Positions 12,884 through 20,738 of a stretch of DNA of 64,000 nucleotides are shown in pieces (positions within the stretch are counted from its first letter, which is position 1; the number at the start of each line of letters is the position of its first letter). Location of the stretch: contig JAJTTP010000016.1 of NCBI GenBank assembly GCA_023313575.1, forward strand, positions 248,001 through 312,000. Direction: 5' to 3'. The position numbers were made by a program, and so were the translations under genes. This stretch comes from Eutypella sp. D-1. Its lineage: Eukaryota > Ascomycota > Sordariomycetes > Xylariales > Diatrypaceae. Under the pieces are notes generated by a model. The model did no database searches and was not told the origin of the DNA. It saw only the letters and a list, made by a program, of their open reading frames with translations.

Positions 12884-14499
12884 ATGGAGTCGTCCTACGG
12901 TACCTTTGACACAGGTCGTATTGCCAATGCTTGGAATCAGCTTTCCCGCCAGCTTTCACCTTCTCACCGGTTTCTGACAATTGAGTCTGATTTGTACGAG
13001 AGTTGGACTCCCGCTGAGAGAGAAGACCTCTCGAAACTCATGGCGTAAGTATTTCTTTTTATCTTGGTATACCTCATGCTCCGTCGACATCTTCTGGTTA
13101 CCCAGTGAAGGCTTTGTACAAGGTCTATTCTTCCCCATATATTAGTGATAAACTACGGTAGAAATATACCACCCGAGACCTTTATTTTCCTTAAGATTTC
13201 ATTTTAATCGGAGTATAATACCAAGATACTAACATGGATTTCTGTTCTAGCCAGCAGATGAACAAGCCATTCGTTCTTTATGCCATCGACACAACAGGAT
13301 GCAATGTCTACATGGGATCAATCGATGAATTTGAGAGCATGGGATACATGCTGCGCGAATCTGCTGAGGGGAAACCATACCTGATCATTCCAGCTGTCAA
13401 CTCCGGACCTGTCAACGCCAACGCGAACTTTAGGCCTTACACGAGTCCCCACCCTGAGACTCCGTCCTTCGGCTATCAGGCTGTCAACGACCACAATCAG
13501 AGTACTGACAACTCGCCTTTCCCTAATCCTCCTTTCCACGATCCTATGTGGGGTTAGGCACCCCACGGAATCGTAACGTCAGGACAAGTGACAGGACAGG
13601 TGGCCCAGCCTGATCAACAGCAGGCCGTTCAACAGCAGGCCGTTCAACAGCAGGCCGTTCAACAGCAGGCTGCTCAACAGCAGGCTCAATGGCCTGTTCA
13701 GCAGCCAGCGAAGAAGCGGCACAGCAAGCCGTCCAGTTCCGGTGCTCCGCGTTCCCAGAACTGCTTCATCCTGTACAGGGAACACTGGGACCCCATCGTC
13801 AGGGCTGAGAATCCTCACCTGACCAGTGTGGGAGATATTTGTAAGTTTGAAAACTTTCCCAACGAGCCAATACATGAATTGAGAGACAATGATGCCAATG
13901 CTAACAATCGCATCTTCACAGCTAAGATCATCGCTGCCAAGTGGCGTAATGTGGATGCGACGGAGAAGGATCTCTGGAGACGTATCTCAGCCCAGGCAAA
14001 GATTGACCATGGCACGAAATTTCCCGGCTACAAGTTTAAACCGCGCCCGTCCGCTTCGATCCCCCGTCGACGGCCCGCTGGCCAAACACAAGCTCGTCCT
14101 AAGCCACGAAGCACTCAGACTAAGAAAGCAACCCGTGCTGGAAGCAAGAAGGCCCAGCCCGCCAACGCATCTACTCAGGCGGTTGCAAGCCCAGCTTCAG
14201 CCCCGGTAATGATCCAACCTGCCATCCCCTTCGCGCCGCAGCCAACTCAGCCTGAGATCCCTAACGAGTCGGCCGCCCAGGAGGAGGACCTGGTCTTCGA
14301 TGAAGATATGGCCATGTACTTTGACTTCGAGAATTACAGCTCTGGCCAGAGCTTTCAGCAGCAGGATCAGCAGCAGGTCCAGCAGCAGGTCCAGGAGTCG
14401 CAAGATGTCAACATGAAATTGCTGGAGGGCATGGCCGACATGCAGATGACGGAGGACAGCAACCAGGATTCCCCCTACCCACTTGGGCCGCTTCTGTAA
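12884..14499 (+). CDS. MAT-type HMG-box protein A, interrupted by one in-frame UAG
   Basis: Three exons: 12884-13044, 13251-13840, 13922-14499. The start has a perfect Kozak context (GCCGCC-ATG-G). Exon 1 and early exon 2 encode an N-terminal module of about 100 aa shared with genes B and C. At codon 156 (13555-13557) the frame meets UAG. The same frame then stays open for 285 more codons: a Gln-rich repeat (13615-13686), a basic KKRHSKP stretch, an HMG box at about residues 221-290 (NCFILYREH, then DISKIIAAKWR, then HGTKFPGYKFKPR) and a Gln-rich acidic tail. The HMG intron splits the Ser codon of DIS, the position typical of MAT HMG genes. No in-frame ATG lies between the UAG and the HMG box, so DNA-binding protein requires recoding. 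Unedited product 155 aa; recoded product 442 aa. An alternative is a nonsense-mutated pseudogene. Confidence 0.85.
13548..13566 (+). promoter_or_regulatory. hairpin holding the in-frame UAG of gene A (candidate A-to-I editing site)
   Basis: Arms GTGGGG (13548-13553) and CCCCAC (13561-13566) pair perfectly and enclose the 7-nt loop TTAGGCA. The UAG is in the loop, with its A at 13556 preceded by U and followed by G. Sordariomycete A-to-I editing favours exactly this: A after U, in UAG, in a hairpin loop. Editing would give UGG (Trp) and join the two modules. Confidence 0.65.
13615..13686 (+). repeat. 15-bp tandem repeat encoding a Gln-rich tract
   Basis: Nearly five units of CAACAGCAGGCCGTT encode QQQAV repeats directly after the UAG of gene A. 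The units remain in frame, and length variation would keep the frame. Gln-rich tracts are common in fungal transcription factors as activation or interaction regions. Confidence 0.9.
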
Positions 14500-15614: not shown

Positions 15615-16567
15615 ATGGACCCAGGCGGTTACTTTCCTGGTGGGCCTGCATCCGCCGCAAGCTTCGAGCCCGCCGAAGTCGACAATCGTCCAACACGAAG
15701 TATGATGGATGTCTGGAATGATCTCCAGATTCAACTCTGGTCACTTAACTCATTTATTGTGATCCCGAACGACTTGTTTTCTAGCTGGAGCCAGCCCCAA
15801 AAGGAACAACTCCAGAAGCTGATGAGGTGAGACGAGCCTGGTTTCTTGTACCTTTCCCGTTGTGACATATACACGACCCCTTCTACAACAATTATTTCCA
15901 GACACTCGACATGGTTATTGTACAGAATAATTCACTTTCCCTTCAGTTGTTGATAACTGCACTAAACCGCAAACAAAAGTACATGAAGCATCGACTAACT
16001 ACAAACATTTCGCAACAACCTAGTCAATCCACCCTCAAAGACGACACTGTCTACACAACCGACCAACGATATCCCGGCCGGGTGTTTCTCGGATCAGCCC
16101 AGGACTTCCAGAAGCATGGGATGCTTCTATTCCGTGGACACCCGCAACAGCCATTGAAAATGTTCCACCAATCCTCGCAGGTAACGAGCGACGCTCCCTC
16201 GCAGCACATCCTAGGTAAGACCTCGTCCAATTTGATACCTGAGAAGCCAGCTAACACCACGCAAGCAGTCGAGAGTGAGGTAGAGGAAATCGAAGAGCCG
16301 GTCCAGAAGAAGAAAGACATGAATGCCTTCATCATATTCAGGACAGCGATGTCTCCTGCTATCAAGGAGGAGTACCTCGATATAAGAGTCCGCGATATTA
16401 GTAAGTATCCTAATTTGATCACTCCTACGGTATAATTATTTGTCAAGCGACGCTGACATCTAGATTCAATAGGTGTCGTGGCTTCCCAGTGGTGGCATTT
16501 ACTACCTAAAGACGGAAAAGCGTCGTGGTACGAAAAGGCACGGGAGAGAAAAGCGGCGGGTAACTAG
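15615..16567 (+). CDS. MAT-type HMG-box protein B, shortened HMG box
   Basis: Paralogue of A and C. Exons 15615-15826, 16024-16400 and 16473-16567 encode 227 aa. I chose the 16024 acceptor because it alone keeps frame with the downstream exon, has an ACTAAC branch site upstream, and makes the residues after the intron align without gaps to gene A (VFLGSAQDFQKHG with VYMGSIDEFESMG). There is no in-frame stop between the N-terminal module and the HMG box. The box starts at about residue 170 (MNAFIIFRTAM) and has the usual intron at DIS. It stops soon after WYEKARERKAAGN, so the basic PGYK-KPR tail present in A and C is missing and DNA binding may be weak. Two in-frame acceptors 9 nt apart (ending 16463 or 16472) are possible for the last intron; the later one preserves the split Ser codon. 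Confidence 0.7.
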
Positions 16568-18629: not shown

Positions 18630-20738
18630 ATGTCTAATATCAACGCGGCGAGTGCTGGTGAGGATGATGGCAGCATCATTGGTATCAAGGCAACACCCAT
18701 CCCCAGAGGACTAGAGGATCTGGATAGCATCTGGGATAAAATTCAAGCTCAGATTAAAGACGAGATTCTAATCATCAAAGGCGAGGTCTACCATGTATGG
18801 GACCCAGCCCTGAGACAAGGTGTCATGGAGCGACTGGAGTAAGTGTTTGTTTTTCTTTTATACATCGGTATCACCCTAACCTTCTACACTTCCTTACGAA
18901 CTTTACATCTTGTGCTCATGCTATCCATGGTGTGGCTCATGATCAGTTCGCGTACAGCCCTAATGAAACATACCACCATTTCTACTTTATGACAGACTTG
19001 TTGTAGGGCACATATTATGAATGAGAGAACTACCTGAGATTCGATATATTCCCTTCGAATTGTACATGCTCTTAAACAGAAATACTGACTGACATCTTAA
19101 CAGGAAAACTCTGGGAAGGACTCAGATCACTTACGCTACCGACCCAGACGCTTCTAACCTGGTAGCCCTCGGCCCTGCAGAGGCCTTCGCGGCGACATAT
19201 AACATGATTCTAATGCCCATCTACACTCAAGAGCTTCCGGTTCTTATTTTTCGGGGTGCACTGATCACGAGCAATGGTGCACCGCTGTCACACGCCGACT
19301 TGGTTGCAATGGTCCAGAGAATGATCGACCGTCGGGCTGAATACGATGCCATTGAGGCTGCAGCAGCAGCTGAACAAGCTGCTGAAGACGCTGCGAATGG
19401 TCAGGCGGATGAAGACGCCGCGAATGTTCAGGCTACCGAAGATGCCGCGCAGGGCTAGTCGCCCAGCGTTGGATCGTCGGCAGCTGGACGAAGGCGTCAA
19501 GCTGAGGATCAGTCTCCCGGCGAGCCCGCAGGTGCCAAAAGGCGTAAGACAAACGGCGGGAAGGCCAAGTCTCTTCAAGCACAGAGGTCGCACACCAAGG
19601 ATCCCGCGAATGGAGTACGCCGGGCGCCTAACAGCTGGATTGGGTATCGCACACATTTCCAGCCAGAAGTCCAAGCGGAGATGGTTGGCATTGCGAACAA
19701 CGACGTCTGTAAGTATTAACATGATCTTTTTGGGGCGATGCCCGACTTCGTCCCGACTTGATTCTTAAGTACAATAACTAATGTCACGTAGCCAAGGTGT
19801 TGGTCAATCGTTGGAACCAGACGGACAAGGAGCCTTGGGAGAAGAGCTACAAGTGGCGCACACGAGTTCTTTACTATAAGCATCCCGACTACCAGTTCCA
19901 GCCTCGAAAGCCCGGCGTCAAGCGGAGTCGACCTGGAGGTAGGAAGGAGGCCAACCAAGCCCGCGAAGCCGCAAACGATGGCCAGGGGTCGGTCCAAGCG
20001 CTGGCTGCAGAGGGTCAGCACGAAGCTGTCCATCCTTTTGCCCAAGAGCCAGCTGAGCAAAGAGGTGCTGGCCAGCGGGCCAACCCTGGGCCTGTCTTCA
20101 CCAACCAAGTCCCGATACCGGTTCAGTACCGAGTTCCAGATACCGTCAACAGCCCAGCTCAAGCCCTGGCATACAACCCTGCCTTCGTCGGTAATACGGC
20201 TGGTGCATACAGCCCAGCTTTCGTCGGTAATACGGCTGGTGCACACAGCCCAGCTTTCTTCGGTAATCCGGCTGGTGCATTCAACCCAGCTTTCGTCGGT
20301 AATCCGGCTGGTGAATACAGCCCAGCTTTGGACTACAGCCCAGCTGCTGTATATAACCCAGATCAAACCCCTGTCGACCAACCGATGAATCTCGAGGCTG
20401 CCCCTGTCTTGAATCCAGTCCAGGCTCTCCCTCATCAAGTTCAGGTCGCCATCGACAACCCAGATTCGGTCTCTGGTAGTGGAAGCTCGGGTCCTTCTTT
20501 GGACAATGAGCCAATCAACTTCCACATCGACCCCGATGTCGATTTTCTCAATTTCGACTTCACTCTGGACAGCGGGACTTCCAACCCCCCGCCGGCGCCC
20601 GTGGACGATGGGGAGCCATCATCAAGTGTCCAGCATGGCCCGATCGTAGAAGGACAGCACTCGGTCGCGAAGACTCCGGATGGGTTCGAATCCATGATGG
20701 AGCAATACATGGAGGCAGCCGACCGAATGGGGCTGTAA
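18630..20738 (+). CDS. MAT-type HMG-box protein C, interrupted by one in-frame UAG
   Basis: Three exons: 18630-18838, 19104-19708, 19792-20738. The N-terminal module (residues about 30-125) aligns with those of A and B, including the conserved Trp positions of exon 1. UAG occurs at codon 188 (19456-19458) and the same frame then continues for 398 codons. It encodes a KRRKT nuclear-signal-like patch, an HMG box at about residues 243-312 (PNSWIGYRTHF, DVSKVLVNRW, HPDYQFQPR), a 12-aa tandem repeat and an acidic, Pro-rich tail. As in gene A, the HMG intron splits the Ser codon (T/CC) and no in-frame ATG precedes the box. Unedited product 187 aa; recoded product 586 aa. The open state of both halves argues for continued selection. 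An alternative is an old nonsense mutation. Confidence 0.85.
19448..19468 (+). promoter_or_regulatory. hairpin holding the in-frame UAG of gene C (candidate A-to-I editing site)
   Basis: Outer arms CGC (19448-19450) and GCG (19466-19468), an A/A mismatch, then inner arms GGGC (19452-19455) and GCCC (19461-19464) enclose the 5-nt loop TAGTC. The UAG lies in the loop with its A at 19457, after U and before G. Its sequence differs from the gene A hairpin, but the architecture is the same. Confidence 0.65.
20172..20315 (+). repeat. 36-bp tandem repeat in HMG gene C
   Basis: Four in-frame units of 36 bp encode the 12-aa repeat YSPAFVGNTAGA with small variations. The repeat lies in the C-terminal region after the HMG box. 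The units differ by a few substitutions, so the array is not brand new. Confidence 0.9.

Follow-up and report, generated by a model that had tools for sequence, protein, structure and literature searches.

Editing of mRNA from A to I in fungi is tRNA-deaminase based, prefers a loop A that follows U, and occurs in the sexual tissue of Sordariomycetes, where it rescues stops such as that in PUK1. PUK1 and AMD1 of Fusarium graminearum are reportedly restorative (stop-loss) edited genes. To our knowledge, the reason why fungi keep stops that require editing is an open question. We analysed a window of 64,000 nucleotides (positions 248001-312000 of contig JAJTTP010000016.1, here C8) together with the genome around it (48.5 Mb in 72 contigs), and describe a group of paralogous genes in which a comparable stop recurs. 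The genome is probably that of a filamentous ascomycete, as its Utp22 matches the Chaetomium structure 6rxv best (372 bits, against 181 for the next chains, which are from yeast; 400 residues compared). We consider it highly probable that four of them, A, C, D and E, encode MAT-like HMG factors with a programmed UAG-hairpin switch opened by A-to-I editing, and we stop short of greater confidence because the full alignment leaves the four stops out of one column. Coordinates of genes A, B and C are window positions, and those of D and E are positions on C8.

Gene A, with which the analysis began, is organised as follows.
12884-14499, forward strand: gene A, three exons
12884-13044, forward strand: exon 1, start of the N-terminal domain (gene model; ATG at 12884)
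13045-13250, forward strand: intron 1, GTAAGT..TAG
13251-13840, forward strand: exon 2, remaining N-terminal domain, linker with the UAG and first half of the HMG box
13538-13574, forward strand: extended hairpin whose loop holds the UAG; the core stem is 13548-13554 / 13560-13566
13555-13557, forward strand: in-frame UAG, codon 156, candidate edited base 13556
13922-14499, forward strand: exon 3, second half of the HMG box and C-terminus

The gene comprises 442 codons besides the final stop, the in-frame UAG being counted among them, and exon 2 is closed by a GTAAGT donor at 13841. The sequence bore out the initial annotation, which had described exon 2 (13251-13840) as open save for the TAG at 13555-13557 and had found no ATG ahead of the HMG box; the stretch from UAG to box indeed lacks a Met codon. 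The HMG box behind the UAG scores 46.9 bits against PF00505 over the spliced box (the Pfam cut-off for this family is 25.4 bits). Directly behind the UAG, 15-bp repeats at 13606-13685 code for Gln-rich units. The GC hairpin reported earlier around the UAG was recovered as well, with GUGGGG (13548-13553) paired to CCCCAC (13561-13566) in a 6-bp stem that encloses the 7-nt loop UUAGGCA; with one further U-A pair, the stem in the minimum-energy fold has 7 bp and the 5-nt loop UAGGC, and outer pairs reach 13538-13574. The adenine of the UAG has an unpaired probability of 1.00 at all five flank sizes folded. Among the 5816 TAGs on both strands of 260 kb of C8, which served as the background set, a loop hairpin of at least this quality is found at 8. 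The z was -2.19 for the core 33 nt and -0.86 for a longer 111-nt stretch. The hairpin is largely set by the amino acids, because 691 of 2000 synonymous recodings of gene A fold as well as the native sequence, and taken alone it is above chance only in part.

Home-made HMMs built from A-D and run over 260 kb of C8 found five such genes, of which A, B and C lie in the window and D and E beyond it, and a sixth member, F, lies on another contig.
15615-16567, forward strand: gene B, exons 15615-15826, 16024-16400 and 16473-16567
18630-20738, forward strand: gene C, exons 18630-18838, 19104-19708 and 19792-20738, PF00505 27.5 bits
19447-19469, forward strand: inner part of the gene C hairpin, GGGC and GCCC around the loop UAGUC, with outer GCGC/GCGU
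19456-19458, forward strand: in-frame UAG of gene C, codon 188
C8:345238-343066, minus strand: gene D, UAG at 344429-344427, PF00505 68.8 bits
C8:341735-340020, minus strand: gene E, UAG at 340842-340840, PF00505 47.9 bits
C67:656600-659100, minus strand: gene F, ATG at 658706, N-terminal domain with an E of 6e-8

From start to start, D lies 84 kb and E 81 kb from A on C8. The copies are widely diverged, with identities of 17-36% between the HMG boxes of A, C, D and E and of 16-33% between the N-terminal domains of the six members. Gene B has no stop ahead of its HMG box and carries AAG at the place aligned by eye; its box is shortened and scores 47.5 bits against PF00505. The GGTAAG at that place could double as a splice donor. 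The C-terminal part of gene C contains 36-bp direct repeats (20133-20361). In gene F, a UAG from 658001 lies in a hairpin loop and is followed by 45 codons until a TGA; the roughly 1.4 kb read behind this UAG yielded no HMG box, and the gene as it stands suggests a relic or an N-terminal-only gene. When fragments of A, C, D, E and F were used to search the genome, the best candidates alone being scored, F was recovered and no other member could be confirmed. A candidate at C1:2567839 was rejected, and C4:993065 is a weak match to the gene E query (E 2.28). The best PF00505 match of the genome search, at C34:197907-198098 on the minus strand (66.5 bits), lies in an 808-codon intronless frame, and its HMG box is the closest to that of gene A outside C8, with 41% identity.

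The strongest evidence comes from outside gene A, with which the initial annotation dealt, since C, D, E and F share the feature. A, C, D and E hold exactly one internal stop apiece, which is always UAG, always sits between the N-terminal domain and the HMG box, and has 249-433 codons behind it; all four HMG boxes behind it exceed the Pfam cut-off. Gly precedes the UAG, and Ala or Ser follows. Of the five C8 paralogs with an HMG box, four thus carry the UAG, as does F, and B alone of the six is without it. In the full alignment the stops of A and C share a column and those of E and D lie 17 and 117 columns away, a scatter that arises because the linkers do not align. Judged by interval, codon and local motif, the four stops probably share one origin, and because they are probably homologous, the chance figures for hairpins and stops given here are not to be multiplied.

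It could be argued that the UAG is simply the true end of these genes, which would then make the N-terminal protein only, with an HMG part that is decaying or separately expressed. Loss does occur in the family, as the shortened box of B and the stop of F with no box found behind it illustrate, and gene D has Met codons ahead of its HMG box. In A, C and E, however, the stretch from the UAG to the box has no Met, and the same codon in the same interval, as a single stop in each of four widely diverged copies, is followed in every case by a box above the cut-off and by coding signal. In each of A, C, D and E, three segments (ahead of the UAG, from the UAG to the box, and behind) were scored with codon statistics trained on other long frames, and frame 0 came out best in 12 of 12. 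The short linkers of A and C are near-neutral and not decisive alone (0.075 against 0.067 in A, -0.022 against -0.072 in C), and the 195-codon linker of gene D is decisive (0.302 against -0.192). A scan of the 260 kb for frames broken by a single stop was uninformative; many of its 16 matches (10 TAG, 4 TAA, 2 TGA) are seemingly antisense shadow frames and, of A, C, D and E, only D passed. Plain decay leaves four matching single stops unexplained, and we regard a true end at the UAG as very unlikely.

The UAG could also be the 3' end of an intron and be spliced out. All four stops read YTAG and so offer a possible acceptor; gene A has branch-like CTRAY words 35 and 53 nt upstream of its UAG, and in gene E a GTGAAT lies 72 nt upstream, the use of which would keep the frame. 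Yet a donor search from the start of exon 2 to the UAG in A, C, D and E, for introns of at least 45 nt, returned not one GTRAG, whereas 9 of the 10 real introns of A-E begin with it (the other with GTATGT). The closest donors in C (GTCAGG) and in D (GTGTGT, 230 nt) would break the frame, which runs on across the UAG in all four genes. Likewise, a CTRAY lies no more than 80 nt from the end in 9 of the 10 real introns, and C, D and E have none within 80 nt of the UAG. When real TAG acceptors were folded in the same manner (n = 11, one mis-indexed row being left out), a single one was in a loop, at -5.8 kcal/mol. An intron that removes the UAG of gene A, which the initial annotation had set against its own reading, is accordingly unlikely in a gene whose exon 2 offers no GTRAG ahead of the stop, and for the group as a whole we find splicing extremely improbable.

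The four stops also have a structure in common. Folded with 20 nt on each side, the UAG is enclosed by 14 pairs in A, 14 in C, 12 in D and 13 in E, at -17.9, -18.3, -14.7 and -16.1 kcal/mol, respectively. In the background set, 1013 of the 5816 TAGs fall within hairpin loops no longer than 9 nt, and 106 reach at least 10 enclosing pairs and -13 kcal/mol or better; where the GC content of the flanks is at least 50%, the corresponding counts are 421 and 90 of 2145. The four hairpins share a register in which base -k pairs with +4+k, so that for k = 1-8 standard pairs fill 28 of 32 cells, against 11-15 in eight slid registers. Two standard pair types occur across the four genes at 7 of the 8 pair positions, and both-sided (compensatory) changes at three of them (k = 1, 5 and 6). 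The native structure was equalled by 66 of 2000 synonymous recodings in C, 19 in D and 0 in E; together with the figure for A, this means that the protein sequence explains much of the hairpin of A, little of those of C and D, and none of that of E. Across A, C, D and E the hairpin UAG exceeds chance as a family.

The hairpin of gene F (12 pairs, -13.7 kcal/mol) reaches the same mark of 10 pairs and -13 kcal/mol, in a register displaced by two, and does not stand out from shuffled sequences (z 0.01). Two of the five terminal stops of A-E are in loops, namely the UAG of gene B (-4.7 kcal/mol) and the UAA of gene E (-8.6 kcal/mol, 12 enclosing pairs), and both are weaker than the internal-UAG hairpins. 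Four copies of the word GGGTTAGGCACCC exist in the genome, in A, in E and at two further loci (L041 and L044), against a chance expectation of about 1.4 and a reversed-pattern control of 2. The two further loci are unconvincing as genes, with 44 and 45 open codons at L041 and 3 and 18 at L044.

All of these observations, namely the four paralogs, the shared register, the coding signal and the splice check, give good support to the view that the UAG has been maintained in A, C, D and E as a recoding site which would gate the HMG box; for gene A, the initial annotation had proposed that the HMG box is reached only through the UAG. As to the agent, programmed translational readthrough could carry ribosomes across the UAG by means of a near-cognate or suppressor tRNA, with the hairpin slowing the ribosome, and it would account equally for the conserved stop, the open frame and the structure. 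Leaky stop contexts are of the types UGA CUA and UAG CAA, whereas the bases 3' of the UAG are GCA in A, TCG in C, TCC in D and GCA in E; moreover, structures that stimulate readthrough lie 3' of the stop, whereas here the stop is itself in the loop. Readthrough predicts both isoforms at a fixed ratio in any tissue, and we judge it unlikely.

The agent is most probably A-to-I editing of the mRNA, by analogy with the known fungal cases. In A, C, D, E and F the candidate A follows a U, which the codon itself fixes, and lies in the loop of a hairpin. The unedited mRNA would yield an N-terminal protein of 155-187 residues that lacks the DNA-binding domain. If the loop A were deaminated, UAG would become UIG and be read as UGG (Trp), and the frame so opened would give the full-length HMG-box protein. 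The switch would act for the most part in sexual tissue (there only, in the initial annotation), and the N-terminal product may have a role of its own. Matches to PF05277, which we take to be the domain of the editing cofactor AME1, were found at four places in the genome and are by themselves no proof of editing. Kinase matches were tried as a PUK1-type control and set aside: among 146 Pkinase matches, 13 had one TAG and no other stop, and in the six of these read by eye, one of them on C8, all six TAGs resemble intron 3' ends, so that no known edited gene emerged as a positive control.

A broader reading, for and against which we see the chances as about even, is that one ancestral UAG-hairpin switch holds off the whole group and that a wave of editing at sexual onset turns its members on. 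N-terminal fragments, possibly antagonists, would then jointly become DNA-binding regulators, the duplications would be old enough to have left 17-36% HMG identity, and gene B, where AAG stands at the site of the stop, would be a copy that escaped. A stop kept between two domains by a group of paralogs would be evidence for a useful switch and against tolerated damage, and editing would be placed upstream of mating-type-like transcription. Furthermore, several natural hairpins in one register offer material for the study of deaminase recognition.

Compared with known systems, the genes of C8 share with MAT1-2-1 and MATA_HMG proteins an N-terminal domain ahead of the HMG box and, in A, B and C, an HMG-box intron at the conserved Ser codon (the codon is Gly in D and Ala in E). 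They differ from MAT1-2-1 in that there are five copies on C8 and in that four of these five carry the UAG. MAT1-2-1 lies at the MAT locus beside SLA2 and APN2, and SLA2 is the usual marker of that locus. The SLA2-type gene, recognised by its I_LWEQ domain, is on C13 and not on C8, and A-E are therefore called no more than MAT-like; a search with MATalpha (PF04769) gave no match, but as its control also matched nowhere this is no sign of absence. With programmed readthrough that adds a C-terminal extension they have in common that one gene would give two products by way of a stop, but here the stop is in a hairpin loop, its 3' bases are not of the leaky kinds, and the long product would be the DNA-binding one. 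The closest likeness is to PUK1 and AMD1, in a UAG within an otherwise open frame, an A after U, a hairpin loop and a likely Trp. Unlike in those genes, the stop with its candidate edit site recurs here in several paralogous transcription factors, and its place at the junction of two domains would let editing control production of the DNA-binding part.
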